Positions 5,999-47,491 of a DNA stretch of 64,000 nucleotides are shown here, piece after piece. Every line of letters starts with the position of its first letter. Positions within the stretch are counted from its first letter, which is position 1. Origin of the DNA: Thermanaerothrix daxensis (lineage in GTDB: Bacteria > Chloroflexota > Anaerolineae > Anaerolineales > Anaerolineaceae); NCBI RefSeq assembly GCF_001306145.1, contig NZ_LGKO01000004.1, positions 186,001 to 250,000 on the forward strand, written 5' to 3'. Position numbers and translations under genes: made by a program. The notes beneath the pieces are model-generated. The model was not told the origin of the DNA and searched no databases. It saw only the letters and a list, made by a program, of their open reading frames with translations.

Positions 5999-6012
5999 CT
6001 AAATAGCCATTA

Positions 6013-6027
6013 ATGTTCGAACATTCG
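6013..6027. promoter_or_regulatory. Operator-like palindrome ATGTTCGAACAT (shared with the GntR promoter)
   Basis: A perfect 12-bp palindrome at 6013-6024, extended to TGTTCGAACATTCG. Thirteen of these 14 bases recur at 18353-18366 before the GntR/HutC gene. It sits just after the consensus promoter, where a repressor would act. The GntR/HutC protein is the best candidate ligand-responsive repressor (inference). Confidence 0.6.
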
Positions 6028-7310: not shown

Positions 7311-7319
7311 AAAGTCATG

Positions 7320-7354
7320 AGCCGGCAGGAATCCCTCCCAGGTTCCTGCCGGCT
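7320..7354 (+). terminator. Terminator-like hairpin after the first dehydrogenase
   Basis: A perfect 12-bp stem (AGCCGGCAGGAA with TTCCTGCCGGCT) and an 11-nt loop. There is no clear U-run after it, so termination may be weak. Confidence 0.5.
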
Positions 7355-7420
7355 GTCTAACAAAGCGAACAATTATCGAACTTAGTCAAAGAAAGATAGA
7401 AATATTAACACTTTTGCTAC

Positions 7421-7449
7421 TTTACATACAAAGTTTTTATTGCTATAAT
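7421..7449 (+). promoter_or_regulatory. Promoter of the ROK regulator gene
   Basis: TTTACA at 7421-7426 and TATAAT at 7444-7449 with a 17-bp spacer, in an AT-rich stretch 30 bp before the ROK regulator start. Confidence 0.65.
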
Positions 7450-7478
7450 CAAATTAACTTCTGCCGGCCGGTTGTCCC

Positions 7479-8711: not shown

Positions 8712-8842
8712 CCGGAATGAAGATCTGAAAGGAGGTGGTCGTAAGCCAGATAAAAATCCCCTTCCCACACCCTCGAATCCAGGCCGTTTAAGATTCACCT
8801 TGTGTACCTTTTCTGATGTATCCTTTCAAGGAGGAGTGAGAT

Positions 8843-10951: not shown

Positions 10952-10957
10952 TGCCCT

Positions 10958-12457: not shown

Positions 12458-12466
12458 GAGCGGGTC

Positions 12467-13444: not shown

Positions 13445-14385
13445 AACGACGCATCAGTCCTACCCTAATCGCGCTGGCTCTGGCGGTTGTACTTTTCTTT
13501 GTGGGTGGCTTGATTCAGCCCGGCTTCACTTCATTTGAATTGGCCATGAACATCCTGCGTTTGGCTGCCTTCCTCGGCATCGTGGCAGCGGGCCAAACGC
13601 TGGTTATCATCAGCGGGGGCGAGGGGATTGATCTTTCGGTGGGGGCCATGGTCACACTAGGAGCCATCATTTCTTATGGTCTGATCAGCAAACGCGATGA
13701 CCGCATCCTGATTGGGTTCCTGGCTTCGCTCGGTGCTGGGATGATCATTGGGACCCTCAATGGAATCGGGGTAGCCTATTTGCGCATCCCTCCCCTCGTC
13801 ATGACTCTTGGCATGGCCACAGTTATCCAGGGGCTAATTTTTGCCGTCACCCAAGGCAGTTTGGAAGGAGGTTCGGCGCCCCTCCTCTCCAAGATCACCA
13901 CCGAACCATTGCTCTTTGGTATTCCCGGAATCCTTTACATCTGGGCGGCCTTTGCCGGCTTGATGTGGTTGCTTCTGCAACGAACCCGTTATGGCAAGAA
14001 CCTTTTCGCCATTGGCACAAACCGCGTTACAGCACGCCTCTCAGGGGTAAACGTCAAGGCCACCGTGATCACCACATACATGCTGTGCAGTACGCTGGCC
14101 TCTTTTGGTGGATTCATCTTCTTGGGCTACTACGAACGCGTCTTCCTCAACCTGGGTAATCCCTATACTCTGCCCTCCATCGCCGCAGTTGTCATGGGGG
14201 GAACCGTGCTTTCAGGAGGGGTTGGAAGTTATTGGGGTACCATGGCTGGTTCCATTGTTCTGACCCTGATCACCAGTTTGCTCACCACCCTGCGCATGGA
14301 AGAACACCTCCGCCAAATCGTTTACGGTGCCATCTTGCTGGTCCTGTTGGCGGCTTACGGTCGTCAACGCGCTCTCCGACAGTAA
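13441..14385 (+). CDS. Sugar ABC importer permease (RbsC type), second subunit
   Basis: 314 residues, same family as the preceding gene: AAGQTLVIISGGEGIDLSVG in the N-terminal half, then FAIGTNRVTARLSGVNVKAT (the coupling helix) and AAVVMGGTVLSGGVGSYWGT near the C-terminus, with about eight membrane helices. The ATG overlaps the stop of the first permease. Having two different permease genes is one of the standard arrangements of the carbohydrate uptake transporter-2 class. Confidence 0.92.
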   Translation: MKRRISPTLIALALAVVLFFVGGLIQPGFTSFELAMNILRLAAFLGIVAAGQTLVIISGGEGIDLSVGAMVTLGAIISYGLISKRDDRILIGFLASLGAGMIIGTLNGIGVAYLRIPPLVMTLGMATVIQGLIFAVTQGSLEGGSAPLLSKITTEPLLFGIPGILYIWAAFAGLMWLLLQRTRYGKNLFAIGTNRVTARLSGVNVKATVITTYMLCSTLASFGGFIFLGYYERVFLNLGNPYTLPSIAAVVMGGTVLSGGVGSYWGTMAGSIVLTLITSLLTTLRMEEHLRQIVYGAILLVLLAAYGRQRALRQ

Positions 14386-14409
14386 TCCCTATCACGCGAG
14401 GTCAATCCC

Positions 14410-15117
14410 ATGGACTATCCAATTCTCAATAGTCAGACCATCACCTACGAACAACTTGCCAAAACCATTGACCACTCGCTTTTGCGTCCCGAATTGACCC
14501 GAGCCGAGGTCATTCAAGGATGCGAACTGGCAGCCCGGTATCATGTAGCCTCGGTTTGTGTAAAGCCCTGCCATGTGCGCCTGGCGTGGGAAGTGCTCAA
14601 AGGCAGTGATGTTGCCGTAGGAACGGTGGTTGGTTTTCCACACGGCTCTTCTACTACTGCAATCAAAGTCGCTGAGGCACTCCAAGCCCTTGAAGATGGT
14701 GCCACCGAACTTGATATGGTCATCAATATCGGGGAACTGCGCTCAGGTAATGATGATTTTGTGCGCCAGGACATCCAGGCGGTCGTCACCGCCGCCAAGG
14801 GCCACATTGTGAAAGTGATCCTCGAGAATGCCTACCTGAGCAAAGAACAAATTGTACGCGGATGCCAACTGGCTGAACAAGCGGGCGCACATTTCGTGAA
14901 AACTTCCACCGGCTTCGCGCCCAGTGGCGCAACCGTGGAAGATGTGCGCTTAATGCGTGCCTCGGTAGGTCCGCGCGTTCAGGTCAAAGCCGCGGGAGGC
15001 ATTCGCACCCTGGAGGCCATCCTGGAAATCATAGACGCTGGCGCCACACGTGTAGGCGCCACGGCAACTGCGGCCATCCTGGATGCCTTCCGCGCCCGCC
15101 AAAACTCGGTTCAGTAA
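14410..15117 (+). CDS. deoC: Deoxyribose-phosphate aldolase
   Basis: 235 residues, the usual length. TIM-barrel class I aldolase with the Schiff-base lysine in VKTSTGFAPSGAT (about 163-175), the proton-relay lysine in VQVKAAGGIRT and the LDMVINIGELRSG and VKVILENAYL strands of the family. It splits 2-deoxyribose 5-phosphate into glyceraldehyde 3-phosphate and acetaldehyde. It sits inside the importer operon, 24 bp after a permease, with no nucleoside phosphorylase or phosphopentomutase nearby. It may therefore act on a related deoxy-sugar phosphate here (inference). Confidence 0.92.
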   Translation: MDYPILNSQTITYEQLAKTIDHSLLRPELTRAEVIQGCELAARYHVASVCVKPCHVRLAWEVLKGSDVAVGTVVGFPHGSSTTAIKVAEALQALEDGATELDMVINIGELRSGNDDFVRQDIQAVVTAAKGHIVKVILENAYLSKEQIVRGCQLAEQAGAHFVKTSTGFAPSGATVEDVRLMRASVGPRVQVKAAGGIRTLEAILEIIDAGATRVGATATAAILDAFRARQNSVQ

Positions 15118-15145
15118 GGCTTAATTCTCGTCTGGAGGGGAAAAC

Positions 15146-16312
15146 ATGAGCAAAGATAAACCAATCAAGGTAGGAGTAGCCGGGGTTGGATTCATCGGCC
15201 CGGCGCATATTGAAGCCTTACGCCGCATTAACATACCCGTCGTCGGTCTGGTCTCCAGCACCCCAGAAAGAAGCCGGCAAAAGGCAGCCGCTCTGGGCGT
15301 TCCCAAAGCCTACGCTTCTTACGAGGAGATGATCGCCGACCCCGAAATCACTGCAGTTCACCTGGCAACGCCCAACTACCTGCACTACCAGCAGGCAAAG
15401 GCAGCCTTGCTGGCGGGAAAGCACGTCATCTGCGATAAGCCGCTGGCAATGAATAGCCGTGAATCCGCTGAATTGGTCACACTGGCGCGCGAAAAAGGGC
15501 TGGTCAACGCCGTGTGTTTTAACCTACGCTTTTACCCCCTCCTTCACCATGCCCGCTCGCTGATCCAACAGGGTGCTTTAGGTGACCTGTTCATTTTGCA
15601 GGGGTCCTACTTGCAGGACTGGCTGCTCTATCCGACTGACTGGAACTGGCGGCTTGAACCCGAACTGGGAGGAACACTGCGCGCTGTGGCGGATATTGGC
15701 TCGCACTGGCTGGATCTTCTCACCTTCTTAACCGGGCTGAAAGTTAAAGCCGTGTTTGCCGATTTTAAGACCTTCATTCCCGTGCGCAAGAAACCCTCTA
15801 AACCTGTTGAGACCTACACCGGCAAACTCCTCACCCCAGAAGATTACGTTGACCAACCCATTTATACTGAAGACTACGCCACCATACTGCTGCGTTACGA
15901 AAACGATGTGCGCGGAGTAGTTACCGTTGCCCAGGTCTGCGCGGGACGAAAAAACCGGCTGTACTTTGAAATTGATGGTTCCAAAGCCGCCATGGCTTTC
16001 GATTCGGAACGCCCTAACGAACTCTGGCTGGGCTATCGCGACAAACCCAATGAGGTGCTTCTCAAAGACCCCTCGTTGCTTTCACCGGAAGCCCGTGCCA
16101 TTGCCTCCTACCCGGGCGGGCACAACGAGGGTTTCCCCGATATCTTCAAACAACTGTTCAAGAAAGTTTACGACTACGTTGAACGTGGGGATTACACTGC
16201 GCCTGCCGATTTCCCCACCTTCCTGGACGGGCATCATGAAATGCTGATCGCAGAAGCCATTGAGCGCAGTGCTAAAGAGGGCCGTTGGGTCGAAGTTCAG
16301 TATGATCTCTAG
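15146..16312 (+). CDS. Second Gfo/Idh/MocA-family oxidoreductase
   Basis: 388 residues. Rossmann motif [17 protein letters not shown] at about 8-24, the nucleotide-binding and catalytic segment [16 protein letters not shown] (about 97-112), and [16 protein letters not shown] (about 183-198), where the Asp and His expected of the active site are kept. The sequence is quite different from the first dehydrogenase at 6108, so the two are not recent duplicates and probably act on different intermediates. GGAGG lies 7 bp before the ATG. It is followed by a TIM-barrel isomerase, a pairing common in inositol, keto-sugar and glycoside oxidation pathways. Confidence 0.9.
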
Positions 16313-16332
16313 TTTAAGAGGAGGAGGTTACC

Positions 16333-17247
16333 ATGAAACTTGGACTGTTCAGTGCTGCATTCCCCCAATGGAGTCTGGAACAATTCCTGGCCTGGTCCGC
16401 CGAGAACGGTTTTGAAATGGTGGAAATCGCCTGCTGGCCGCCTGGCAAAGCCGAGCGACGCTATGCTGGGGTAACTCACATTGACGTCACCAATCTGACC
16501 CCCGCAGGCGCGAAAGAAATTCAAGCCATGTTAAAAAATTATGGCCTGCAAATCTCTTCATTGGGGTACTACCCCAACCCGTTACACCCCGATCCGGACC
16601 ATCGCCAAACCGTTATTGAACACCTTAAGAAAGTTATCCTTGCCGCTGAGATGCTCGAGGTTCCTATTGTGGGCACCTTCATCGGTAAAGATAAAAACAA
16701 AACGGTCCCCCAAAATCTGGAGGAGTACGCCAAAGTTTGGCCACCCATTGTAAAGTTCGCCCGTGAGCACGGCATAAAGATCGCCATTGAGAACTGCCCC
16801 ATGATTTTCACTTACGATGAGTGGCCGGGAGGCAACAACCTCGCTAGCACACCTGCCATATGGCGCAAAATGTGGGAGATCATCCCGGACGAGAACTTTG
16901 GCCTGAATCTTGACCCCTCCCATCTCATCTTACAGATGATTGACTATGTGCGGGTGGTCTACGAATTCAAAGACCGCATCTTCCATGTGCACGCCAAAGA
17001 CCTGATGATTGACCGGGAAGGCCTCTACAATAACGGGGTGCTTTCTCAGGGGATGGGCTGGCAGGTACCGCGCTTACCCGGGTTTGGAGAAGTTGATTGG
17101 GGTAAGTTTATCGGGGCTCTCTACCGGGTCGGCTATGATTATGTCCTGAGCATTGAGCATGAGGATCGGGCTTTTGAAGGCACCGAGGATCTGGTCAAAC
17201 GCGGCTTCCTGATTGCCCGCGATGTGCTTCGGCCATACGTCCATTAA
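16333..17247 (+). CDS. Sugar phosphate isomerase/epimerase-like TIM-barrel protein
   Basis: 304 residues of the xylose-isomerase-like TIM-barrel family (AP endonuclease 2 fold). Metal-binding residues are visible in the expected strands: the Glu in IAIENCPMI, the Asp-Pro-Ser-His of LNLDPSHLI, the His residues of FHVHAKDLMI and the Glu of YVLSIEHEDR. This group includes inosose isomerases, 3-dehydroshikimate dehydratase-like and keto-sugar isomerases, and enzymes that break 3-keto-glycosides. GAGGAGG precedes the ATG. A strong hairpin follows immediately, so this is the last gene of the importer operon. Confidence 0.88.
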   Translation: MKLGLFSAAFPQWSLEQFLAWSAENGFEMVEIACWPPGKAERRYAGVTHIDVTNLTPAGAKEIQAMLKNYGLQISSLGYYPNPLHPDPDHRQTVIEHLKKVILAAEMLEVPIVGTFIGKDKNKTVPQNLEEYAKVWPPIVKFAREHGIKIAIENCPMIFTYDEWPGGNNLASTPAIWRKMWEIIPDENFGLNLDPSHLILQMIDYVRVVYEFKDRIFHVHAKDLMIDREGLYNNGVLSQGMGWQVPRLPGFGEVDWGKFIGALYRVGYDYVLSIEHEDRAFEGTEDLVKRGFLIARDVLRPYVH

Positions 17248-17249
17248 CG

Positions 17250-17295
17250 AAAATGTGAGAGGGGTTTAAAATTAGAAAAACCCCTCTCACATTTT
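17250..17295 (+). terminator. Strong intrinsic terminator ending the importer operon
   Basis: Arms at 17250-17267 and 17278-17295 pair over 18 bp (core GTGAGAGGGG with CCCCTCTCAC), with an 8-10 nt loop. The descending arm ends in TTTT and is followed by a T-rich stretch. Confidence 0.8.
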
Positions 17296-17327
17296 ATTCT
17301 CATTGACTCCATGCAACACAGGTGACT

Positions 17328-18305
17328 ATGAAAGAATGGTATATCGGCTGTGACTTGGGTGGCACTAATCTTCGCGCGGCTTTGGTGAACGTCACTGACG
17401 GCTCCGTCCATCATGCCATTTCAACCCCCACCCTTTCCCGTGAGGGCCCCAATGCTGTCATTCAACGCATGATTGACCTATTCCACCGGGTGATTCAAGA
17501 AAGTGGCCTTTCTCCCCAGGAAATTGGAGGAATTGGCATTGGAGTGCCCGGAACGGTGGACATGGAGCGTGGGGTTGTCTTGTTCCTGCCTAACCTGCCC
17601 ACCACCTGGCCTAACGTTCCCCTGGCAGATTATGTTCAGGCTGGCACTACCTTGCCAACCGTCATTATCAATGACGTGCGCGCCATTACCTATGGGGAGT
17701 GGCGCTTTGGTGCGGGTCAGGGAGTCAATACCATGGCGTGCTTTGCCATTGGAACGGGCATTGGAGGTGGCCTGGTGATCAATCGCCAACTCCATTTGGG
17801 GTTCGGAGGCACCGCCGGTGAATTGGGGCACATAACGGTGGATGTGAACGGGCCCCGTTGCGGGTGCGGTAACTATGGCTGTGTTGAGGTCTTTGCTTCG
17901 GGTCCGGCAATCGCCGCCATGGGCATGAAAGCCGTAGCACAGGGCTGGACAACGCAAATTGGAGCATTGGTGGACTATGATCTTAACCGCATAACCCCCG
18001 AGATCATCGCACGCGCTGCGCGCAACGGCGATGCAGTTGCCCGCGAGATCTTTGAAATTGCAGGTGGCTATATTGGCACAGCGGTTGCCAATGTGGTAGT
18101 AGCGGTCAACCCTGAGCGTGTGGTCATAGCCGGCGGGGTCGCTCAAGCAGGTGACCTTCTCCTCGATCCAATTCGGCGCACCCTGCATCAACGCGTCTTT
18201 GTCGTGCCCAAAGAGCGCATTGAAATTGTCCCGAGTAGCCTGGGAAATAACGCCGGGGTCGTCGGCGCAGCCCTATGGGCTTACCACAGTCAACACAGAG
18301 ACTAA
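17328..18305 (+). CDS. ROK-family sugar kinase
   Basis: 325 residues from the ATG at 17328; a GTG two codons earlier (17322) is the alternative. It starts WYIGCDLGGTNLRAALVN, the phosphate-binding motif of ROK kinases, and has no DNA-binding domain. The zinc motif GHITVDVNGPRCGCGNYGCVE and the segment IINDVRAITYGE with the catalytic Asp are intact. This points to a cytosolic kinase for glucose, fructose or an N-acyl amino sugar. It stands after the importer operon terminator and before the GntR gene. With the SIS protein and GntR/HutC regulator it could mean an amino-sugar substrate, but glucokinase activity is equally plausible. Confidence 0.88.
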   Translation: MKEWYIGCDLGGTNLRAALVNVTDGSVHHAISTPTLSREGPNAVIQRMIDLFHRVIQESGLSPQEIGGIGIGVPGTVDMERGVVLFLPNLPTTWPNVPLADYVQAGTTLPTVIINDVRAITYGEWRFGAGQGVNTMACFAIGTGIGGGLVINRQLHLGFGGTAGELGHITVDVNGPRCGCGNYGCVEVFASGPAIAAMGMKAVAQGWTTQIGALVDYDLNRITPEIIARAARNGDAVAREIFEIAGGYIGTAVANVVVAVNPERVVIAGGVAQAGDLLLDPIRRTLHQRVFVVPKERIEIVPSSLGNNAGVVGAALWAYHSQHRD

Positions 18306-18352
18306 TCCCTGAGATGTGAACCAAACCATAGCAGGGTAAAGGCATTGTTTAT

Positions 18353-18366
18353 TGTTCGGACATTCG
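18353..18366. promoter_or_regulatory. Operator-like motif TGTTCGGACATTCG before the GntR gene
   Basis: Differs by one base from the motif at 6014-6027. A TATAAT element follows at 18388-18393, which places the motif in or just upstream of the -35 region of the GntR promoter. Confidence 0.58.
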
Positions 18367-18433
18367 CACTTAAGCACAAATAAGGACTATAATTGCCCAA
18401 GGGTTCCCTTGCACATCCGCACGAGTGATAATC

Positions 18434-19201
18434 ATGGCTTCTCAACCGTCTCTTGCCCTCAACCTGGATATTCGCCCAGCCGATCCGCACAACCCCCTTC
18501 CCCTATACTACCAGGTCTATGCCGACCTTAAACGCCTCATCCGCACCGGCGCATTACGACCAGGTGAATTGCTTCCGCCAGAACTCACACTGTGTGATCT
18601 TTACAGAGTAGGGCGCCAAACCGTCCGAAGTGCAGTAATGCGCCTGGTAGACGAAGGTTGGCTGGAACGTCACCGCGGAATTGGAACTTATGTCATGGCG
18701 CCACAACATGCACAGCGATTTTTCCTGGATCGTTCCTTTTCCCAGCAGATGGAGGAAATGGGAAAACACCCCCGCTCAATGGTCCTTAGACAAACTCCCG
18801 GGGTTTTAGACGAACAAGCCCCCGAACCATTCCAATCTAAAAAGGGAGCCCCCTGCTTCTACCTGACCCGCTTGCGCTTTGGGGATGAAGAGCCCATAGG
18901 CATCCAGCATGCCACCATTGTGACCGAGCATTGCCCTGGACTGGAGGCTTACGATTTCAACACCCATTCTCTTTATGCAGTGCTCTCACAAAATTACAAC
19001 CTGATCGTTGCTCGTATTACCCATGCGTTCAGTGCTGTATCTGCCTCTCCCTATCAGGCCGAACTCCTACAAACCATGTTGGGAGCTCCTCTGCTTCTGG
19101 TGAAAACAACGGCATTCCTTGAAAACGGCGAGCCCATCGAGCACACGCTCAGTTATTATCGTTCCGACCGCTTTGAGTTTACTGTCGTCCACACCCTTTA
19201 G
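18434..19201 (+). CDS. GntR/HutC-family transcriptional regulator
   Basis: 255 residues from the ATG at 18434 (a GTG at 18425 is an alternative). The winged helix of GntR proteins is at about 17-80: LPLYYQVYADLKRLIRTGAL, then RVGRQTVRSAVMRLVDEGWL, with RGIGTYV ending the wing. The UTRA sensor domain follows (about 95-250), with FYLTRLRFGDEEPIGIQHAT and the final LSYYRSDRFEF typical of HutC regulators that sense amino sugars, sugar phosphates or urocanate. It heads the second operon (SIS, SDR and others), 45 bp upstream of the SIS gene. It is the best candidate for binding the motif shared at 6014 and 18353. Confidence 0.9.
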   Translation: MASQPSLALNLDIRPADPHNPLPLYYQVYADLKRLIRTGALRPGELLPPELTLCDLYRVGRQTVRSAVMRLVDEGWLERHRGIGTYVMAPQHAQRFFLDRSFSQQMEEMGKHPRSMVLRQTPGVLDEQAPEPFQSKKGAPCFYLTRLRFGDEEPIGIQHATIVTEHCPGLEAYDFNTHSLYAVLSQNYNLIVARITHAFSAVSASPYQAELLQTMLGAPLLLVKTTAFLENGEPIEHTLSYYRSDRFEFTVVHTL

Positions 19202-19246
19202 CAGCTCTTTTTTATATTCCCTTTCTCTCCTTGAGGGAGGTCACCA

Positions 19247-20044
19247 ATGAACACTGGTCAGGCAGCTCTGGATTACTTAGAACAGGCCATGCATATTTTG
19301 GAACGAATCCGCCAGACTCAGATGGATATGATCCAGGAAGCGGCCGAATTATGTGCTCATGCCATTGCAAACGACGGACTGGTGCACCTGTTTGGCACGG
19401 GGCATTCTCGGATGATGGTAGAAGAAATGTTCCCCAGGCATGGGAGTTTCCCGGGATTTCATCCCATTGTGGAACTTTCACTCACCTACCACAACCCCGT
19501 TGTGGGAGCGAATGGTCAGCGTCAGGCCATGTTTCTGGAACACGTAGAGGGCCTGGGACGGGTGATCATGCGCAATTTTGTCTTCGCGCCGCCAGATGTC
19601 TTTATGATCTTTTCCAATAGTGGCGTCAATGAGGTTGTAGTTGAAGTTGGGCTGGAAGCCAAGCGCCAGGGTATGCCGTTAATCGCGGTAGTATCGGTTG
19701 AGCATTGCCGGGCTGTGCGTGCCCTTCACTCTTCAGGGAAAAAATTGATAGATATTGCCGACATTGTCATTGACAACTGTACTCCCGCGGGCGATGCTAT
19801 GGTCTGGATTGAGGGGTTGGAAGATCCCGTCGGCCCCGGTTCGACCATCGGCGGAGCAGCGGTCGTGAATGCCATTAAGTGCGCCATCGCCGAACGCCTG
19901 ACCCAAATGGGCAAGCCACCTTTGGTGCTGACCAGTAACTACTTTTTAGGCGAAGAACGCTCCCATCAGCGCTTTGAGGCCTGCTACGATGACTATCGCG
20001 CCCGCGTTCAGCGTGTATATGGACGTTGTGGAGGCGAAAAGTGA
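19247..20044 (+). CDS. SIS-domain sugar isomerase-like protein (UPF0309 type)
   Basis: 265 residues. The SIS phosphosugar-binding fold is evident from LVHLFGTGHSRMMVEEMF (about 44-61) and VFMIFSNSGVNEVVVEVGLE (about 121-140), with the Ser-rich loops that bind sugar phosphates. The late motif TPAGDAMV and GAAVVNAIKCAIAERL fit the UPF0309 group, whose reaction is not defined. It probably isomerises or de-aminates a phosphosugar in the pathway. GAGGGAGGT precedes the ATG. It overlaps the following SDR gene by 4 bp. Confidence 0.85.
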   Translation: MNTGQAALDYLEQAMHILERIRQTQMDMIQEAAELCAHAIANDGLVHLFGTGHSRMMVEEMFPRHGSFPGFHPIVELSLTYHNPVVGANGQRQAMFLEHVEGLGRVIMRNFVFAPPDVFMIFSNSGVNEVVVEVGLEAKRQGMPLIAVVSVEHCRAVRALHSSGKKLIDIADIVIDNCTPAGDAMVWIEGLEDPVGPGSTIGGAAVVNAIKCAIAERLTQMGKPPLVLTSNYFLGEERSHQRFEACYDDYRARVQRVYGRCGGEK

Positions 20045-20823
20045 GTAGAGGTTGGCTTGAAGGAAAGGTTGCTGTGGTCACTGGAGCCGCCAGTGGAATT
20101 GGTCGTGCCACGGCACGGGTTTTTGCCCAGGAAGGTGCCCAGGTGATCGGCCTGGACATCAATCCTGAGGTGGAGATGGAATTCCTACGCGAAATTCAGG
20201 AATCCGGAAGTCAGGGAATGTATATTCCCACCGACATGACCTCTTCCCCCTCATTGGAACGTGCCCTCCAGATGATCCGTGATCATTATGATCACCTGGA
20301 TATTTGGGTCAACGTAGCGGGTGGCAGCGGACGCAAATACGGCGACGGCCCAATTGCCGAATGCACCGAGGAAGGGTGGGATTACACCCTGGACCTTAAC
20401 CTGCGCACCGCATTCCTGGGTTCACGCGCTGCTGTTCGCCAGATGCTGCAACAAGGACACGGCGTGCTTATCAATATCGCCTCCGTGTTGGGGCTGGTCG
20501 GGGGTGACGAAGATTTTGCCACTCATGCGTATGCGGCTAGCAAAGGCGGAGTGATTGCCCTCACACGGGCAATCGCGGCTTACTATGCCCCCTACCATAT
20601 CCGTGCCAATGTCATTTGCCCCGGCTTAATCGCCACACCTATGAGCCGACGTACCCAGGAAAGTCTAAAGATCCGAGAGCGACTTTTGCGTTTACAACCA
20701 CTTACCGGAGATTTCGGCCATCCCGAAGACGTAGCCTACGCAGCCCTCTTTCTGGCCTCTGACCACGCGGCGTTTATTACAGGTGCTATTCTGACTGTGG
20801 ATGGGGGTTGGACGGTATTATAA
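20041..20823 (+). CDS. Short-chain dehydrogenase/reductase (classical SDR)
   Basis: 260 residues. The GTG at 20041 is chosen because it overlaps the SIS stop (GTGA) and has GGAGG 6 bp before it. The cofactor motif GAASGIGRA (about 15-23), NVAGG, the catalytic Ser in NIASVLG and YAASK (the YxxxK pair) are all present, followed by ANVICPGLIATPM and the final TGAILTVDGGW. It should oxidise or reduce a hydroxyl of a sugar intermediate with NAD(P). Position in the GntR operon suggests a role in the same pathway as the SIS protein. Confidence 0.9.
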   Translation: MSRGWLEGKVAVVTGAASGIGRATARVFAQEGAQVIGLDINPEVEMEFLREIQESGSQGMYIPTDMTSSPSLERALQMIRDHYDHLDIWVNVAGGSGRKYGDGPIAECTEEGWDYTLDLNLRTAFLGSRAAVRQMLQQGHGVLINIASVLGLVGGDEDFATHAYAASKGGVIALTRAIAAYYAPYHIRANVICPGLIATPMSRRTQESLKIRERLLRLQPLTGDFGHPEDVAYAALFLASDHAAFITGAILTVDGGWTVL

Positions 20824-20834
20824 AGAGGTGATTT

Positions 20835-22130
20835 ATGGACATCTGGCAACGCAAACCCTATAAGGAGATCGAGGTCGAGGTCCTTGTGGTGGGCGGGGGG
20901 GCGGCGGGAGCAACCGCCGCCATTGCAGCGGCCCGCGAAGGTGCGGCGACTCTGCTGGTCGAGCGATACGGCTTCCTGGGAGGGATCAGCACCCAGGTCC
21001 TGGATACATTCTACGGGTTTTACACCCCCGGATCTCACCCTCGTAAAGTAGTCGGAGGAATCCCAGATGAAATTGTTGAAGCCCTTGCTCAACACGACTC
21101 TATGCTCATCCGCCCAAATACTTATGGGGCGGGGAATGGCATCACCTACAATCCTGAAATTCTGAAAGTTGTATGGGAGACTTTGGCCATTCGCGCGGGG
21201 GTAAAGATCCTTTTCCACACGCTGGCCGTGGAGGTTTCGGTTAATCGTGAGCGGATCGAAACCGTCACAGCAGCCACCAAAAGCGGTTTCCTTCGCATCC
21301 GCCCACGTGTGGTTGTGGATGCCTCTGGCGACGCCGATATTGCAGCCCTGGCAGGCGTACCTTATGAGAGTGCAAGTCACGGACCAGTGCAGGCGCTAAC
21401 CACGACATTTCGGCTGCTCAATGTGGACCTTCAGCGCGCCACCCAGGTGACCAGAAAGGAATTACACGAACGAATGGCACAGGCTATTGCTGAAGGTGCC
21501 TACGATCTGCCCCGTAAGGAGGGCAGCGTACACATCTCTCCCTTGCCCGGCGTAATGGCAACCAACATGACTCGCGTTGTAGAGGTGGATCCAACTGACA
21601 TTGAACAACTCAGCCAGGCGGAAATAGAGGGACGTCGGCAAGCCCTGGAATATTTTCGTTTCCTGCGCGAACGTGTTCCGGGTTATGAACGTGCCTGTTT
21701 GGCAGGGCTCAGCGTGCAAATTGGGGTGCGTGAGAGCCGACGCATTTGGGGGCGCTATCGCCTGACCCGAGAGGATGTTCTGAATGGTCGCAAGTTCGAG
21801 GACGCCATTGCCCAATGTGGTGCACCGATTGAGGAACACCATGCTGGAAAGGATACCCGCTGGGAGTATCTGCCCGAGGGCGAAACCTACCACATCCCAT
21901 ATCGCTGTCTGCTCCCCGCCAATTGCGAAGGGCTAATCGTTGCAGGACGCTGTTTATCTGCCGATCACGATGCACATGCTTCGGTACGCAGCATGGGACA
22001 ATGTATGGCAATGGGCCAGGCAGCTGGCGTTGCGGCCGCCTGGGCAGCGCAGCACAAAACCACCCCTGCAGAGATCCCAATTTCCCGACTGCAGGAACGC
22101 TTGCGTCAGATTGGTGCCATTCTAGATTAA
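20835..22130 (+). CDS. FAD-dependent oxidoreductase
   Basis: 431 residues. The FAD motif VEVLVVGGGAAGATAAIAAA (about 14-33) is perfect, with an acidic end VERYGFLGG. Further FAD segments are RVVVDASGDADIAALAGVPY (about 158-177) and, near the C-terminus, LLPANCEGLIVAGRCLSADH plus SVRSMGQCMAMGQAAGVAAA. This is the FAD-dependent oxidoreductase group often linked to sugar utilisation in anaerobes and to broad dehydrogenases. No Fe-S or haem motif is seen, so its electron acceptor is not evident. GAGGTGATTT precedes the ATG. It follows the SDR by 11 bp. Confidence 0.88.
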   Translation: MDIWQRKPYKEIEVEVLVVGGGAAGATAAIAAAREGAATLLVERYGFLGGISTQVLDTFYGFYTPGSHPRKVVGGIPDEIVEALAQHDSMLIRPNTYGAGNGITYNPEILKVVWETLAIRAGVKILFHTLAVEVSVNRERIETVTAATKSGFLRIRPRVVVDASGDADIAALAGVPYESASHGPVQALTTTFRLLNVDLQRATQVTRKELHERMAQAIAEGAYDLPRKEGSVHISPLPGVMATNMTRVVEVDPTDIEQLSQAEIEGRRQALEYFRFLRERVPGYERACLAGLSVQIGVRESRRIWGRYRLTREDVLNGRKFEDAIAQCGAPIEEHHAGKDTRWEYLPEGETYHIPYRCLLPANCEGLIVAGRCLSADHDAHASVRSMGQCMAMGQAAGVAAAWAAQHKTTPAEIPISRLQERLRQIGAILD

Positions 22131-22146
22131 TTTTTTGGAGAAGACG

Positions 22147-23283
22147 ATGCCCGCTACAATGAAGCCACGAGAACGTCTGTTAGCCGCCTTGCACCACACC
22201 GAACCAGACCGAGTCCCCACGGCCCTATGGGGAAGCGCTTATGGCATCACCGATGGGTTGTACTTTAAGCTAGTCGAATATCTTAATCTCAGACAACCGC
22301 TCCCGCCTTTCCGCCGCCGCCTCGGGCACACCGTAAATCATTATGATGACCGTATCCTTGAGGCTTTGGAAATCGACATACGCCACGTGTGGTGTGGATT
22401 TCCCGACTTAGGCGGACCTCAAAAAGGGGGTGGTGCCGATGCCTGGGGGGTCACTTACACCCAAAGTGGGCCTTACCTCACCGCCACCTCTCACCCGCTG
22501 GCCTCTGCCACGGTGGAGGATCTAGAAACCTACCCCTGGCCTAAGGTGGATGCCTACCTGCGTCTGGATGAACTGAAAGAACGTGCGCGTTATCTGCGTG
22601 AGCACACCGCCTACGCTGTGGTCGGACGGGCTCCAGATTCCTACGGAATCTTCGAACGCTGCTGCACACTACGTGGGACAGAGCAATTCTTGATGGATCT
22701 CGTTGACAACCCCTCATTTGCCGAAGTGTTGATCGCTCAGGTCTCTCAAGTCCTGGACACCCTTTTTGTCCGTTACCTTGAAACTGCTGGGCCCTGGCTG
22801 GATGTGCTGGAACTGCCCGGCGATGATTACGCGGGTGAACATCCAATCATTTCCCCACGCATGTTCGACCGCTTCTTCGCCCCAGCCTGGCGACGGCTGA
22901 TCAGCACTATCCGAAGCCTGGCCCCGCACATCAAACTGCTCTTCCATTCTGATGGAAATATGGCTCCTTTCCTGGGGCGATTGGTTGACCTCGGCATAGA
23001 TATTTTCCACAGTGTTGAACCATTGCCCGGCGTTGATTGGGCCTCATTGAAGGCTCGTTATCAGGGTCAACTTTGCTTCTGGGGCGGGATAGACATCAAG
23101 CAAGCCCTGCAAGGCCCCCCCGAGCAAGTCATCGAGGAGGTAAAAAATCGAATTCGTCTCTTAGGCGCAGGCGGAGGATACGTGTTAGCCCCCAGTAATC
23201 ATTTACAGCCCGACATTCCTCCCCAGAACGTGGTGATCCTGTTCAAGGCAGCCCAGGATTACGGTCGCTATCCACTCATCTGA
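22147..23283 (+). CDS. UroD/MtaA-family protein, probable corrinoid methyltransferase-like enzyme
   Basis: 378 residues from the ATG at 22147 (GGAG 7 bp upstream); an in-frame TTG at 22135 is less likely. It begins MKPRERLLAALHHTEPDRVP, the typical start of the uroporphyrinogen decarboxylase superfamily, and has LFHSDGN (265-271), CFWGGIDIKQAL (310-321) and SNHLQPDIPPQN (350-361). True UroD is ruled out by context and by the poor substrate-binding N-terminus. The zinc ligands of MtaA-type methyltransferases (His-x-Cys and a late Cys) appear as His-Ser-Asp and are partly missing. It could transfer a methyl group to the corrinoid protein encoded at 26902, or do another reaction. Confidence 0.72.
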   Translation: MPATMKPRERLLAALHHTEPDRVPTALWGSAYGITDGLYFKLVEYLNLRQPLPPFRRRLGHTVNHYDDRILEALEIDIRHVWCGFPDLGGPQKGGGADAWGVTYTQSGPYLTATSHPLASATVEDLETYPWPKVDAYLRLDELKERARYLREHTAYAVVGRAPDSYGIFERCCTLRGTEQFLMDLVDNPSFAEVLIAQVSQVLDTLFVRYLETAGPWLDVLELPGDDYAGEHPIISPRMFDRFFAPAWRRLISTIRSLAPHIKLLFHSDGNMAPFLGRLVDLGIDIFHSVEPLPGVDWASLKARYQGQLCFWGGIDIKQALQGPPEQVIEEVKNRIRLLGAGGGYVLAPSNHLQPDIPPQNVVILFKAAQDYGRYPLI

Positions 23284-23301
23284 GAAAGGTAGGTGAAAGC
23301 C

Positions 23302-24234
23302 ATGGCGTTTATTCGCACCGTCCGCGGTGACCTGAATCCGAGCGATTTAGGGGTCACATACATGCACGAACACCTGTATTTCCTGCCCCCCGAACCATTT
23401 GCCTCTCAAGACCCTGACCTGCGTCTGGATGATCTGGGGGCCGCCATTCGTGAAGTCACCTGGTTCAAAAAAGCCGGGGGAAGCGCTATTGTGGAGATGA
23501 CCACCCCTGAACTCGGCCGTAACCCCGATGTGCTGCGCCGTATATCCGAAGCCAGCGGCGTGCATATCATTGCCACAACGGGTTTCAACAAGGCCAAGTT
23601 TAGTGCTTCATGGGTAGCAGAACGTACCCCGGAAACCCTGGCAGAAGAAATGATCCGGGATCTGACTCACGGGATCAATCACTCCGGAGTACGTGCGGGG
23701 GTTATCAAAGCATCCAGCAGCCTTAATGAAATCACCCCTTCTGAGGTCACCGTTTTCAAAGCCGCGGCGCTGGCTCATCAGGCCACCGGGGCACCCATTT
23801 CCACGCATACCGAGGCCGGGACAATGGCCTTGGAACAGATCCAGTTATTAACCAGCGCGGGGGTTTCACCCCAACGCATTTTAATTGGACATTTGGACCG
23901 TCATCTGGATCCGGATTACCTGCTCACGGTTGCCCGCACAGGGGTTTACTTGGGCTTTGATCAAATCAGCAAAGAAAAATACGCCCCTGATAGCCGGCGG
24001 ATTGAGATGATCAAACAACTGGTTGCCGAGGGCCATGCTGATCAAATCATGCTTTCCGGGGATCTGGCCCGCAAAAGTTACTGGCCGAGTTTCGGCTTTG
24101 GAAACGGACCGGGACTGACCTACATTCTATGGCGCTTTGTGTCCCGTTTGATTGAAGAGGGTCTTCCGCCAGTTACCGTACAACGTTTCTTGATAGATAA
24201 TCCTGCCCGCTTCCTGGCCTGGGTTGAAAAGTAA
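23302..24234 (+). CDS. Phosphotriesterase-family metal hydrolase
   Basis: 310 residues from the ATG at 23302 (AGGTGA 5 bp before); a GTG at 23293 is possible. The amidohydrolase TIM barrel has YMHEHL (the HxH metal ligands, about 21-26), the lysine of AGVIKASSS that would be carboxylated, the His of STHTEAG, then IGHLDRH and the final Asp of MLSGDLARKS. All metal ligands of the phosphotriesterase/PLL/Php family are present. Members hydrolyse lactones or phosphoesters. In this operon, where sugars are oxidised, a sugar lactonase is the simplest reading (inference). Confidence 0.85.
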   Translation: MAFIRTVRGDLNPSDLGVTYMHEHLYFLPPEPFASQDPDLRLDDLGAAIREVTWFKKAGGSAIVEMTTPELGRNPDVLRRISEASGVHIIATTGFNKAKFSASWVAERTPETLAEEMIRDLTHGINHSGVRAGVIKASSSLNEITPSEVTVFKAAALAHQATGAPISTHTEAGTMALEQIQLLTSAGVSPQRILIGHLDRHLDPDYLLTVARTGVYLGFDQISKEKYAPDSRRIEMIKQLVAEGHADQIMLSGDLARKSYWPSFGFGNGPGLTYILWRFVSRLIEEGLPPVTVQRFLIDNPARFLAWVEK

Positions 24235-24251
24235 ATAAAAAGGAGAATGGA

Positions 24252-24908
24252 ATGGATCGCCTAATGGTCTATCGCGCCATCCTGGAAAAGCGCATTATTC
24301 CCCTTTTCTTCAACCCTCATCCCCAGACCGCCATCGAGGTTACCAGAGCCTGCTTGCGGGCAGGTGCCACAGTAATTGAATTTACCCACCGGGGAAAAAA
24401 CGCTTTAGAAGTTTTTGCAGCACTGCGCCGAGAATTTGAGGGCGCCGAAGCCGTGATCGGGGCTGGCACAATTTTAGACGCCTCTACAGCAGCTCTCTAC
24501 CTGACTCGGGGAGCCGACTTTATTGTCAGTCCGGTTTTTGATCCCTCCATCGCCACCCTTTGCCATCGCCACGGAGTGGCCTATATTCCTGGTGCTGCCA
24601 CACCTACCGAGATTGTGCACGCCCTCTCCGCAGGTGTGGAGATCATTAAACTCTTCCCCGCCGATTCCCTGGGTGGCCCGGCTTACGTCCGCAGCCTGCG
24701 CGGCCCGATGCCCTGGCTCAAGCTTCTCCCTACTGGGGGAATCCCCCTCGAAGAGAGAGCGATTCGCGCCTGGTTCGAGGCTGGCGTTGTGGCAATTGGC
24801 ATGGGTGGCCAGCTTTTGCGCCCAGAATGGATGACCGCACAAGCCTTTGACCAGATTGAACAGGCAGTTGCCCAAGTCCTGACCTGGATCCACTCGCCTC
24901 AGGCGTAG
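24252..24908 (+). CDS. 2-keto-3-deoxy-phosphogluconate-type aldolase (KDPG/KHG family)
   Basis: 218 residues, the usual length. The class I aldolase signature includes VIEFTHRGKNAL (with the catalytic Glu), GAGTILDASTA and the Schiff-base lysine in VEIIKLFPADSLGG, then LLPTGGIPLEE. It would split a 2-keto-3-deoxy acid (phosphate) into pyruvate and an aldehyde. Together with the dehydrogenases and putative lactonase this completes a non-phosphorylative or Entner-Doudoroff-like branch. It is the last gene of the operon and its 3' end overlaps the convergent activator gene by 10 bp. Confidence 0.9.
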   Translation: MDRLMVYRAILEKRIIPLFFNPHPQTAIEVTRACLRAGATVIEFTHRGKNALEVFAALRREFEGAEAVIGAGTILDASTAALYLTRGADFIVSPVFDPSIATLCHRHGVAYIPGAATPTEIVHALSAGVEIIKLFPADSLGGPAYVRSLRGPMPWLKLLPTGGIPLEERAIRAWFEAGVVAIGMGGQLLRPEWMTAQAFDQIEQAVAQVLTWIHSPQA

Positions 24909-26791
24909 CTGAGCATCTTTCGCGCCTCGGTTTGCTCGGGGAAACGCAGGGCATTGATAAAATGGTTTTGAAAACCCGCATCCTGAGGGATGAGTAAGTA
25001 CTCCATTCGCTCTACCAAGTCCACGGCATGACAACGCAGGGTGCGATTAAGCAGTGCCATGCAAGCCCCTGCTCCTGCTACATTTCCCACCCCGCGAATG
25101 CGATCTAGCCTAATAGAAGGAAGCAATCCCAAAGCCATCACATGACGTGGACTGAGCACAGTACCGAAAACCCCTCCCAAAAGGATCGCAGAGAGATCCT
25201 CGCCCCTTATCCCCACCCGTTCGAATAAGAGGGTCAGGCTCGAAGCCAGAGCCCCCTTTGCCAACTGCACAGCCCGCACGTCGCTTTGGGTGAGCACCAA
25301 AGGGGATCCCGTACTGCTTGCTTCCGCAGGAACAATTTCTAACGCCAACTGATGGGTAGAGTTTCGGATAATGCATGCCGCACCCTGTCCCTCATGGATG
25401 CGTCCGTCGGGGGTTATCAACCCTGCCGCCAGGGCTTCGGCAACGATTTCGATCACTGCCGATCCACACAATCCCTTTGCTTTCAGATTGGGTTTATCCA
25501 TTGCACGATCCTGACCAATCAGAGAAAAAACGAAGCGTCCCCGTAAAGGATCGAAACTAACACGTTCCACGGCTCCTGCCTCTGCCCGCATTCCATGCGT
25601 GATCTGAGCCCCCTCAAAGACTGGCCCCATCGGGACGGAGGTGCAGATCAACCGGTCACCATGCTTCAAGATAATCTCGCCGTTCGTCCCCATATCAACC
25701 AGCAAAGCATTTCCCTCAATATTTTCGATGCCACTTCCCAGAACTGCGGCTACTGCGTCGGCCCCTACATAACCTGCTTTTAGAGGTAAAACATGCAGCC
25801 GCGCTGCAGGAGCCAGAGACAATCCAATTTGGTGGGCTGGAATATCCAGAGCATGCCGAAGCACAGGTTCAAAAGGCAGACTTCCCAATCCTGATGGATC
25901 AAGACCTAAGGCCAGATGATGCATCACGCTGTTTCCCACCAAAACGGCTTCCACAATGTCTTCTACCGAAATGCCCACCCGGCATGCCAATTTGGCAATC
26001 ATTCCATTGAGCACCTTGACTAATGTTTGCTGCAGATCTCTCAAGCCTTCTGGATGGGTCTGGACAAACCCAATGCGCGAAATAATATCCGCCCCATAGG
26101 CCACCTGGGGGTTCAATTCTGAACCTGAGGTCAAAATGCGACCCTCAATCAGGTCACACAGATACACCGCCAATGTGGTTGTTCCCACATCTATGGCAAC
26201 GCCATAACCGTGTACGTGAAATCCTGGCTGTACATGAATCACGTTGTGATCATCACACAGGGTGAGAGTCACCTCTGTGATTCCATCTTGCCAGAGAGAG
26301 AAAAGCCTCTTGCCGGCTGAGGGCACCCATTCGAGGTGTCCCTTCCCCACTGCGTTCTTCACAAATTCCAACAGGTCTGTCAAACCCATTTCAGCGAAGG
26401 ACATGCGCCCAGGCAGAGTAACATGGAGGAGTTGTATTGTGGGCTCGGTCAGGAATTCTGTGCTAAAGAGTGTTTTCTCCTTTACCCAGCGGCGACGTTG
26501 GGACGTTTCGGGGACTCGAACCCAAACTTTTCCATGCACCCGGGCATGACAGGCTAAGCGCCAGCCCTCCAGATAACCCCGTCGCTCCAAAAGCACTTTC
26601 TCCTCTGAAGAGACCGGGGAAAGGGCATTGGGATCAGCCATTTCCACCGCCACAACGCACTTCCCACACCAGCCCTTGCCTGCACAGGGTGCCAGGAGAT
26701 CCAATCCTTCCCGCTGAAGCACCTCAAGCAATGTCTCTCCAGGCTGGGCTCCAATTGAGCGATTTTCTGGAAGTAGCACTACCTCTGGCAT
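24899..26791 (-). CDS. Corrinoid protein reductive activator (RACE type, ferredoxin plus ASKHA ATPase)
   Basis: 630 residues, the usual size. An N-terminal plant-type [2Fe-2S] ferredoxin domain (about 1-95) has Cys36, Cys42, Cys45 and Cys81 in the C-x5-C-x2-C-xn-C order. After a linker, the actin-like ATPase part (about 200-630) has GVAIDVGTTTLAVYL, then LLVDMGTNGEIIL and VLLGGVFGTVL-type segments (read here as ILLGGVFGTVL). These proteins use ATP to reduce inactive cob(II)alamin to cob(I)alamin in corrinoid methyltransferase systems. It is divergent from the corrinoid protein at 26902, 110 bp away, which supports the assignment. Confidence 0.9.
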   Translation of the reverse strand: MPEVVLLPENRSIGAQPGETLLEVLQREGLDLLAPCAGKGWCGKCVVAVEMADPNALSPVSSEEKVLLERRGYLEGWRLACHARVHGKVWVRVPETSQRRRWVKEKTLFSTEFLTEPTIQLLHVTLPGRMSFAEMGLTDLLEFVKNAVGKGHLEWVPSAGKRLFSLWQDGITEVTLTLCDDHNVIHVQPGFHVHGYGVAIDVGTTTLAVYLCDLIEGRILTSGSELNPQVAYGADIISRIGFVQTHPEGLRDLQQTLVKVLNGMIAKLACRVGISVEDIVEAVLVGNSVMHHLALGLDPSGLGSLPFEPVLRHALDIPAHQIGLSLAPAARLHVLPLKAGYVGADAVAAVLGSGIENIEGNALLVDMGTNGEIILKHGDRLICTSVPMGPVFEGAQITHGMRAEAGAVERVSFDPLRGRFVFSLIGQDRAMDKPNLKAKGLCGSAVIEIVAEALAAGLITPDGRIHEGQGAACIIRNSTHQLALEIVPAEASSTGSPLVLTQSDVRAVQLAKGALASSLTLLFERVGIRGEDLSAILLGGVFGTVLSPRHVMALGLLPSIRLDRIRGVGNVAGAGACMALLNRTLRCHAVDLVERMEYLLIPQDAGFQNHFINALRFPEQTEARKMLSYA

Positions 26792-26901
26792 CTAAATTAG
26801 GGAGGGCCTCCATTTATTGGGGGTTTTTCTGATTATAGACCCAGCTGTGTCTCTCCTGGTTATAATTATTGTCAACACATAATTTTCCGTGAGAGGAAAA
26901 C

Positions 26902-27546
26902 ATGCCCCCAGACACCCTCACCGCAATTTTTCAAGCCGTTGTAGATGGAAACACCCGTGGAGTGGTTGAAGGCATTGATCGCGCTCTCGATCATGGAATT
27001 GACGCCGAGGTAATTCTGAATCAGGCGCTCATTGGAGCAATGGGTGAGGTAGGGCGTTTATTTGAGGAAGGCGAGTACTTTGTCCCCGAGATGCTGGTAG
27101 CGGCACGCGCCATGCAGGCCGGCCTCAGCCGCTTACGCCCGCTGTTGGTCGCACAAGGCGTTCAACCTCTAGGAAAAATCGTCCTGGGCACGGTCAAAGG
27201 CGATTTACATGATATCGGCAAGAATCTGGTCGGAATGATGCTGGAGGGAGCCGGATTTCAGGTCATTGACCTGGGCACCGACGTGGCCCCTGAGAAATTC
27301 ATTGCTGCTCTGGAAGAACACAAGCCCGACATTTTGGGGATGTCGGCTCTCTTGACCACAACAATGTCGAACATGAAACTCACCCTGGATGCCCTGAAAC
27401 AGACGAATTGGCGCGATCGCGTTCGGGTGATTGTGGGGGGTGCGCCGGTCACCGAAGCCTTTGCACAACAGATTGGTGCCGATGGCTACGCACCGGATGC
27501 CAGCCGCGCCGTTACCCTGGTAAAGCGCTTACTCCAGATCGCCTAG
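26902..27546 (+). CDS. Corrinoid (B12-binding) methyltransferase carrier protein
   Basis: 214 residues. The N-terminal cap helix bundle (about 5-85) contains LFEEGEYFVPEMLVAARAMQ, and the Rossmann-like B12 domain has the lower-axial histidine motif DLHDIG (101-106) within GTVKGDLHDIGKNLVGMML, then LGTDVAPEKF and ALLTTTMSNM and VGGAPVTEAFAQQIGADGY. This is the MtaC/MtbC-type two-domain carrier that shuttles a methyl group between two methyltransferases. GAGAGGAAAAC precedes the ATG. Its activator is divergent next door and a UroD-type protein lies 3.6 kb upstream. Confidence 0.93.
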   Translation: MPPDTLTAIFQAVVDGNTRGVVEGIDRALDHGIDAEVILNQALIGAMGEVGRLFEEGEYFVPEMLVAARAMQAGLSRLRPLLVAQGVQPLGKIVLGTVKGDLHDIGKNLVGMMLEGAGFQVIDLGTDVAPEKFIAALEEHKPDILGMSALLTTTMSNMKLTLDALKQTNWRDRVRVIVGGAPVTEAFAQQIGADGYAPDASRAVTLVKRLLQIA

Positions 27547-27571
27547 GCCCGCCTTCTATGGGGAGCAACCA

Positions 27572-47403: not shown

Positions 47404-47433
47404 TGTCGTTAGTTCCGCTCCTCATTTCAGAAT

Positions 47434-47480: not shown

Positions 47481-47491
47481 ATAAACACCTA

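Follow-up and report, generated by a model that had tools for sequence, protein, structure and literature searches.

The window analysed here is a stretch of 64,000 nucleotides from Thermanaerothrix daxensis (G000:C3:186001-250000; genome of 3.01 Mb in 6 contigs, 97% complete), and it contains genes for a UroD-like protein, a corrinoid carrier and an ATP-dependent corrinoid activator at the end of a sugar-type import locus. With confidence only slightly above even, we propose that the UroD-like protein works with this carrier and activator in corrinoid-dependent demethylation of a methylated sugar or cyclitol. A first-pass annotation of the stretch had already suggested that a methylated sugar is demethylated here, and this is still the best fit after comparison with other genomes, given the recurrent linkage of UroD and carrier genes, the other corrinoid methyltransferase genes in related loci, and the joint absence of UroD, carrier and activator from a genome that keeps a UroD-less form of the locus.

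A UroD-like gene adjoins the only carrier and activator genes of the genome

Profile matches confirmed that all three gene types named in the first-pass annotation lie within 5.4 kb (22147-27546):

22147..23283, + strand: UroD-superfamily protein, proposed methyltransferase I (PF01208, 79 bits; cut-off 23.9)
24899..26791, - strand: RACo-type ATP-dependent corrinoid activator (RACo_C_ter 235, Raco_middle 177 and Fer2 32 bits)
26902..27546, + strand: stand-alone corrinoid carrier, MtgC type (PF02607, B12-binding_2, 80.9 bits; PF02310, B12-binding, 101 bits)

The UroD-like protein has 378 amino acids from its ATG, in a frame that opens at a TTG at 22135, and by profile it is a distant member of the URO-D family. 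It has three NCBIfam matches, all to methyltransferase models, and no HemE-type NCBIfam match was found for it. The carrier, of about 210 amino acids, shows DLHDIG, SALL and GG, which we take to be the base-off corrinoid motif; it scores 229 bits with MtgC_2, below the cut-off of 370, and substrate-specific names were left unassigned because the scores fall below the cut-offs. The activator has the complete set of [2Fe-2S], RACo middle and RACo C-terminal domains and scores 338 bits with AcsV, below the cut-off of 800.

The genome scan with PF02607 gave four matches, namely the window carrier, MetH and two adjacent MerR-type regulators with B12 domains, and the MtgC-type carrier is unique at E 1e-30. 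The scan with PF14574 matched the window activator alone, which shows that RACo is present in a single copy. The genome's only MtgC-type carrier and its only activator both adjoin the UroD gene of the sugar locus. PF01208 matched the window protein and two others: a 38% paralogue at C1:794741-795901, which lies beside a transporter gene and a BMP-type ABC locus (assigned by eye), and a URO-D protein of 331 amino acids at C3:260957, which scores 94 bits with the methylcobalamin:coenzyme M methyltransferase model (cut-off 244). The two MerR-type B12-binding regulator genes adjoin each other on C2 (L006, 1072-2064; L007, 1054-2025).

UroD and carrier genes are repeatedly linked in sugar loci

A scan of named genomes gave 80 UroD loci, in which many open reading frames received their names by eye or from tblastn matches to the window proteins. 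Orthologues of the window UroD with 41-65% identity are found in sugar loci of similar make-up in many Anaerolineae. Six of these loci (L119, L121, L122, L123, L125 and L126) carry the series UroD-GntR-SIS-SDR-FAD oxidoreductase-PTE; a Gfo/Idh gene is divergent in five of the six (the contig of L123 starts at UroD), a weak KDPG-aldolase-like match occurs in five of the six (not L121), and the ROK regulator and importer are present wherever the contig reaches.

Comparison of homologue neighbourhoods, which had been named as a check on the proposal, showed a carrier in 4 of the 28 loci with orthologues of at least 41% identity (L112, L117, L124 and L132), where 0.33 would be expected given each genome's size and number of carriers (MetH frames left out) and the length of the locus (Poisson P 4e-4). 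Because of this excess, and because the carrier and RACo are single-copy in the genome studied here, the neighbourhood appears to be more than chance. In the whole scan, a carrier lies in 10 of the 80 UroD loci and a RACo match in 2 of the 80 (L117 and L137); the combination thus recurs, and the earlier statement that sugar import operons rarely carry such genes is not supported. In a tree of 45 hand-picked sequences from the 81 UroDs (the 80 loci and the window; the carrier-bearing L171 was left out), labelling the 10 rows with a carrier in the locus, including the window, required 10 changes, at least 8 of them forced by supported branches. This argues that the linkage between UroD and carrier is not one inherited accident; it has been repeatedly gained or lost and is therefore often absent too.

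The four carrier-bearing loci differ in what accompanies the pair. L117 (Anaerolineales UBA6055) has on one strand the UroD orthologue, an MtaA-like URO-D protein, a CobW-type GTPase, the carrier, RACo, a homocysteine S-methyltransferase and DUF1638. In L124 the order is UroD-GntR-SIS-SDR-KDPG-aldolase-carrier, then a MetE-like protein, and in L132 it is SIS-UroD-carrier, then another URO-D gene, the FAD oxidoreductase and PTE. L112 (Peptococcaceae CEB3) has an Rbs-type importer, PfkB kinase, MtaA-like URO-D protein, UroD orthologue, SIS and carrier, and taken alone it is a weaker case because its genome has 33 carrier matches. In three orthologue loci, an MTTB-family gene lies in an operon-like run with ROK and a close UroD orthologue (L070, 321 bits; L071, 346 bits; L073, 294 bits), and the runs of L070 and L073 also have a creatininase/IolN-like gene. 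The MTTB-family genes are at 6846-8273 in L071, 5798-7303 in L070 and 11784-13121 in L073.

UroDs outside this close group show comparable arrangements. In the acetogen Eubacterium aggregans, which has a distant UroD, the genes for UroD, an FGGY kinase, the carrier and a Pterin_bind methyltransferase are consecutive (L160, 9977-14207). In L180 and L087, also with distant UroDs, UroD-type genes, a carrier and UxaC share one locus, which makes these loci candidates for 4-O-methylglucuronate demethylation. The two functions are joined in a single 643-amino-acid protein in L165 (10645-12576), where URO-D and both B12 domains lie behind an Rbs-type importer, and UroD and carrier matches lie in a single 685-amino-acid frame in G097 (L108, 9356-11413). 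In G027, a genome of the same order, a run of genes on one strand, 13 kb long and adjoined by a CO-dehydrogenase-family gene, contains UroD and carrier together with a class II aldolase, an EIIC-GAT permease of the phosphotransferase system (PTS) and a transaldolase-type gene, its other genes being named by eye. We tentatively suggest, at a confidence a little short of even, that UroD-superfamily methyltransferases, of which many have a His-Asp...Asn-His site, are a B12-dependent demethylase family for methylated sugars and cyclitols that is plugged into diverse bacterial sugar loci (Rbs-type, PTS, uronate isomerase, FGGY kinase), with the methyl group salvaged into methionine or folate.

UroD, carrier and activator co-occur among genomes of the class

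Chance co-occurrence of the gene types had been named as an outcome that would speak against the proposal. In 199 genomes of the class, counted without correction for kinship and lifestyle, the carrier (E 1e-30) is present in 102 of the 109 genomes with UroD (E 1e-20) and in 33 of the 90 without it (UroD only, 7; neither, 57), an outcome that did not refute the proposal. The corresponding uncorrected counts for UroD and RACo are 105 with both, 4 with UroD only, 36 with RACo only and 54 with neither. Among the 28 orthologue-bearing genomes, which overlap with the 199 (e.g. G048 and G200), a stand-alone carrier is present in 26, with MetH-like matches only in G216 and G224 (both smaller than 2 Mb), and RACo is present in 25 (missing in G205, G216 and G218).

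A window-type SIS protein at 60% identity or more occurs in 10 of the 199 class genomes, and its context was compared in 8 stretches from 7 of the 10, two G085 regions included (G127 is the genome of L075). One stretch, L257 (G055), keeps the series importer-Gfo/Idh-ROK-FAD oxidoreductase-SIS-SDR and lacks UroD; at the class-scan cut-offs, G055 gave no match to any of carrier, RACo and UroD. L259 (G085) keeps part of the locus, with UroD on another contig, and the remaining SIS stretches have SIS with little else of the locus.

The methyl group would probably pass to homocysteine

The first-pass annotation had the methyl group probably going from the corrinoid to tetrahydrofolate. It had also reported no second methyltransferase to tetrahydrofolate, and this extends to the whole genome: the Pterin_bind scan (PF00809) gave two matches, MetH and DHPS (303 bits; cut-off 163), and found no dedicated folate methyltransferase besides MetH. 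On the homocysteine side, the genome has MetH (a frame of 1183 amino acids), directly followed by a bifunctional homocysteine S-methyltransferase/MTHFR (665 bits; cut-off 453), and a core-MetE-like protein (G000:C1:1249821-1250798) that is 49% identical to the carrier-adjacent MetE-like protein of L124.

Carrier-RACo pairs of relatives, picked by coordinate comparison as examples rather than as an exhaustive count, are divergent like that of the window in G209, G215 and G226 and convergent in G208. All four units contain a homocysteine S-methyltransferase; DUF1638 is also found in G209 and G215, a CobW-type gene in G209 and G208, and an MtaA-like URO-D protein with a thioredoxin-like tail in G209, G215 and G208. 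Because there is no folate methyltransferase II besides MetH, and because several relatives place a homocysteine methyltransferase or MetE-like gene beside the carrier, the acceptor is probably homocysteine rather than tetrahydrofolate; the distant L160, in contrast, does have a pterin-type methyltransferase II.

From the gene identities, superfamily fold, recurrent linkage and co-occurrence, we infer the following route, including its substrate and acceptor. The RbsABC-type transporter would import a methylated monosaccharide or cyclitol. The UroD-like protein would act as methyltransferase I, activating the methyl ether through a polar or metal site (H267, D269 and H352); the methyl group would go to the carrier's Co(I) corrinoid. 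Carrier oxidised to Co(II) would be returned to Co(I) by RACo at the expense of ATP, with the [2Fe-2S] domain of RACo supplying the electron. The methyl-carrier would then pass the methyl group to homocysteine, perhaps through the core-MetE-like protein, the homocysteine S-methyltransferase/MTHFR or MetH, and the sugar thus freed would be taken further by the locus-encoded dehydrogenases, SIS protein, aldolases and lactonase.

Evidence against the proposal and alternative explanations

The leading alternative, which we regard as unlikely though serious, is that the proximity of these genes has no functional meaning: the UroD-like protein would carry out another reaction of the sugar pathway, and the carrier and activator would serve a methyl-to-methionine system, similar to a split methionine synthase. 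The points that weigh against demethylation by the three proteins together are given in this and the next three paragraphs, and the arrangement of the genes is the first of them. The UroD-like gene, which had been placed in the GntR operon, belongs to a same-strand run behind GntR-SIS-SDR-FAD oxidoreductase; the activator and carrier genes are outside this operon. The activator, on the minus strand, converges on the UroD-bearing run with a 10-bp end overlap, and activator and carrier are divergent, 110 bp apart. Strands and gaps rule out one operon for all three, and the corrinoid genes are, as read from the sequence, neighbours in three transcription units. No operator-like site was found between activator and carrier, and in the window none was found that would tie these two genes to the sugar regulators, consistent with unlinked functions. 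The Rfam scan of the window gave no match at the gathering score, and because of this a cobalamin riboswitch near the corrinoid genes was rejected.

The UroD-like protein scores 37 bits with the MtaA/CmuA model TIGR01463, whose cut-off is 235. Its AlphaFold model (45 aligned sequences) has a pLDDT of 94.6 and a pTM of 0.93. Foldseek ranked 4ay7, a methyltransferase of Methanosarcina mazei, first (E 3.4e-16, TM 0.71/0.78), followed by uroporphyrinogen decarboxylases and then MetE. We take 4ay7 to be MtaA. When the same matches were compared with VIA-align 2, however, uroporphyrinogen decarboxylases came first (Z 27-29), with 4ay8 and 4ay7 at ranks 22-23 (Z 27.1 and 26.9) and MetE at rank 17 and below. 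VIA-align 2 thus fails to bear out the top Foldseek match, and the fold was dropped as proof of a methyltransferase; the model places the protein in the URO-D superfamily and leaves methyltransferase and decarboxylase undiscriminated, and a fold as near to decarboxylases as to methyltransferases favours unlinked functions.

The predicted active site also departs from that of MtaA, whose zinc motif is His-x-Cys ... Cys. In the alignment, these zinc ligands are absent from the window UroD, which has an HxDG/NH site instead (H267-S-D269-G and N351-H352, both conserved within its own clade), and the HxD in place of HxC again favours another reaction. D227, H267, G270 and D316 are invariant in the 45 aligned UroD sequences, and position 269 holds Asp in 30 of them and Cys in the other 15. 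Asp269 pairs with N351 in 29 of 30 (the exception is L144) and Cys269 with H351 in 14 of 15 (the exception is L133), and the tree splits into 30 and 15 rows with support of 100/98; of the 30 rows, 29 are of the Asp type. This near-constant pairing, Asn351-His352 with Asp269 and His351 with Cys269, looks as though the ligands had been swapped jointly. We infer that H267, D269 and H352 form an altered metal site. Methyl transfer could survive without the zinc site, because CdmB, from the cdmBCA chloromethane system in Acetobacterium dehalogenans, is reported to be zinc-independent in the available part of PMC13222342.

The comparative data also contain points on this side. A carrier is missing from 24 of the 28 orthologue loci, some of them on short contigs. 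The carrier-RACo units of G209, G215, G226 and G208 sit away from the sugar locus, and because they adjoin a homocysteine methyltransferase, and in three of the four another MtaA-like UroD, the carrier may serve other methyl donors. These four units, two of them with DUF1638, are the strongest support for the methionine-synthesis explanation, and equally for homocysteine as acceptor in the proposed demethylation; as far as the available text of PMC12478193 describes it, the MtgC/RamA/DUF1638 set resembles them. At the genome level, the co-occurrence of UroD and carrier may reflect an anaerobic lifestyle. The SIS comparison gave one case for demethylation and one partial case against it, the latter being L256 (G117), a partial locus (SIS, importer, Gfo/Idh 2 and TIM barrel) without UroD in a genome that nevertheless has the carrier and RACo.

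Unlinked functions are opposed by the four carriers inside orthologue loci and the repeated linkage on the tree, by the MTTB-family genes in three orthologue loci, by the UroD-less sugar locus of G055 in a genome without carrier and activator, and by the position of the genome's single carrier and single activator, both at this locus.

It is improbable that the corrinoid system handles an N-methylated or quaternary-amine compound imported by the locus rather than an O-methyl sugar. Those MTTB proteins whose function is known use quaternary amines as substrates, and the MTTB-family genes (294-346 bits) in the runs of L070, L071 and L073, with the creatininase-like genes in L070 and L073, point in this direction. 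However, the scan of the window's genome with PF06253 gave no match, so that an MTTB partner there was rejected; the transporter, kinase, Gfo/Idh proteins and aldolases are of sugar or cyclitol type, and the creatininase-like proteins also resemble IolN of the inositol pathway (115 vs 141 bits in L070, neither reaching its cut-off).

Behind the carrier, on the same strand, lie genes for an OmpR-type response regulator and a histidine kinase (26902-29697), and the gap of only 26 bp between carrier and response regulator, which also counts against demethylation, would suit a role of this unit in sensing or regulation that has nothing to do with methyl catabolism. This explanation is very improbable, because the carrier's type, MtgC, is that of methyltransferase systems and an activator gene lies beside it, and because no such pairing was seen in the other carrier loci whose open reading frames were inspected.

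Comparison with known demethylation systems

The aromatic O-demethylases MtvB, OdmB, VdmB and MtoB are similar to the system proposed here, by description (general background and the available part of PMC13222342), in the superfamily of methyltransferase I, the carrier type, the ATP-dependent activator and the methyl ether substrate. They differ in their aromatic methoxy substrates and in having a folate methyltransferase II in the cluster, whereas here there is a sugar locus and no folate methyltransferase II besides MetH. A dedicated PF00809 folate methyltransferase is expected of a three-component corrinoid O-demethylase; it is lacking here and present in the distant L160. According to the same source, cdmBCA likewise combines a UroD-superfamily methyltransferase I with a carrier, but it acts on a haloalkane, has the folate methyltransferase II CdmA in the cluster and lies in another gene context.

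As far as the available text of PMC10418091 describes them, Type 1 mlp clusters also bring UroD-like proteins, a carrier and Ram/RACE together, with no folate methyltransferase in those described. They differ in needing Mlp2 and Mlp3 (SCMT-like) and are proposed for methyl-sulfur or selenide compounds, and the words 'sugar' and 'carbohydrate' are absent from that text; the 5.4 kb here has one UroD-like gene, which scores far below the SCMT models. The Ruegeria set MtgC-MtgD-MtgE-RamA-DUF1638, in the available text of PMC12478193, shares a stand-alone carrier, a RamA-type activator and methyl transfer to homocysteine, and relatives of the window's carrier-RACo pair carry a homocysteine methyltransferase and in some cases DUF1638. 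In that set, however, the donors are betaine and methyl-tetrahydrofolate, through MTTB and pterin proteins, and the word 'uroporphyrinogen' is absent from the same text. The P450 demethylation of 6-O-methyl-D-galactose similarly removes a methyl group within a sugar utilisation pathway, but it is oxidative and releases formaldehyde (PMC10033563), and it involves no corrinoid.

Among the matches listed in the open-access literature, there was no report of corrinoid-dependent demethylation of O-methylated sugars or cyclitols. Such compounds are widespread in plant and microbial polymers. If the proposal is correct, it would provide an oxygen-independent route, the corrinoid counterpart of oxygen-dependent P450 demethylation, and would link sugar catabolism to one-carbon and methionine metabolism. 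It would also offer a possible role for some of the numerous UroD paralogues in Anaerolineae that lack an assigned function, and predict that clusters of UroD, carrier and UxaC handle 4-O-methylglucuronate.

Layout of the sugar-type locus

The sugar-type locus, with its Rbs-type importer, spans 6108-24908 on the + strand. Its first half has the order Gfo/Idh 1, ROK regulator, RbsABC-type importer, DeoC-like aldolase, Gfo/Idh 2, TIM-barrel isomerase-like protein and ROK kinase, and its second half the order GntR, SIS, SDR, FAD oxidoreductase, UroD-like, PTE-like and KDPG-aldolase-like. The features other than the corrinoid genes are as follows:

6012..6025, unstranded: palindrome AATGTTCGAACATT, putative operator ahead of the first sugar run (mismatch-free motif match)
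6108..7310, + strand: Gfo/Idh dehydrogenase 1 (IolG 122 bits, levoglucosan dehydrogenase 130 bits, both below cut-off)
7479..8711, + strand: ROK-type regulator (PF00480, 197 bits)
8843..14385, + strand: RbsABC-type importer (Peripla_BP_4 twice, ABC_tran twice), with a doubled binding protein (8843-10951), ATPase (10958-12457) and permeases (12467-13444 and 13441-14385)
14410..18305, + strand: DeoC-like aldolase, Gfo/Idh 2, xylose-isomerase-like TIM barrel and ROK kinase
18351..18364, unstranded: related site ATTGTTCGGACATT ahead of the GntR run (mismatch-free motif match)
18425..19201, + strand: GntR/UTRA regulator heading the UroD-bearing run (PF00392 and PF07702)
19247..20044, + strand: SIS-domain sugar isomerase-like protein (PF13580, 146 bits; PRK02947, 288 bits, above the cut-off of 135)
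20026..20823, + strand: SDR dehydrogenase, true start possibly near 20044 (PF13561, 208 bits)
20835..22130, + strand: FAD-dependent oxidoreductase (PF12831, 401 bits)
23293..24234, + strand: PTE-family, lactonase-like protein (PF02126, 243 bits; closest solved relative by sequence 3pnz)
24252..24908, + strand: KDPG/KHG aldolase-like protein (PF01081, 132 bits; eda TIGR01182, 177.6 bits, above the cut-off of 156)

Gfo/Idh 1 is among the best-conserved genes of the locus, with mostly 68-78% identity in the neighbourhood tables of locus-bearing relatives. The DeoC-like aldolase scores 251 bits with deoC TIGR00126, exceeding the cut-off of 117; Gfo/Idh 2 matches PF01408, the TIM barrel scores 132 bits with PF01261, and the ROK kinase scores 229 bits with ROK_glcA_fam, below the cut-off of 260. 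The first permease matches ribose-type permease models below their cut-offs, the second was assigned by eye, and the SIS protein has the solved relatives 3cvj and 9eol. Naming the substrate was attempted and given up: the IolG-, IolC-, IolN- and levoglucosan-dehydrogenase-like scores are all below cut-off, and because of this the substrate class is kept at sugar or cyclitol.

The two putative operator sites share TGTTCG(A/G)ACA, and one precedes each half of the sugar locus. The motif, built from the 6012 site, is mismatch-free at two window positions only; because it gives 21 matches in the window at two or fewer mismatches, compared to 22 expected, only the two exact positions carry weight. 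The palindromes are perhaps the operator of the ROK or GntR regulator of the locus.

The binding-protein gene at 8843-10951 contains two Peripla_BP_4 units that are 94% identical as protein, and their DNA is 99% identical over the first 750 bases. This doubling would be either a recent internal duplication or an assembly artefact. Elsewhere in the window, two adjacent open reading frames at 46036-49747 are rich in CxxCH and resemble multihaem cytochromes, the larger having two similar halves by eye.

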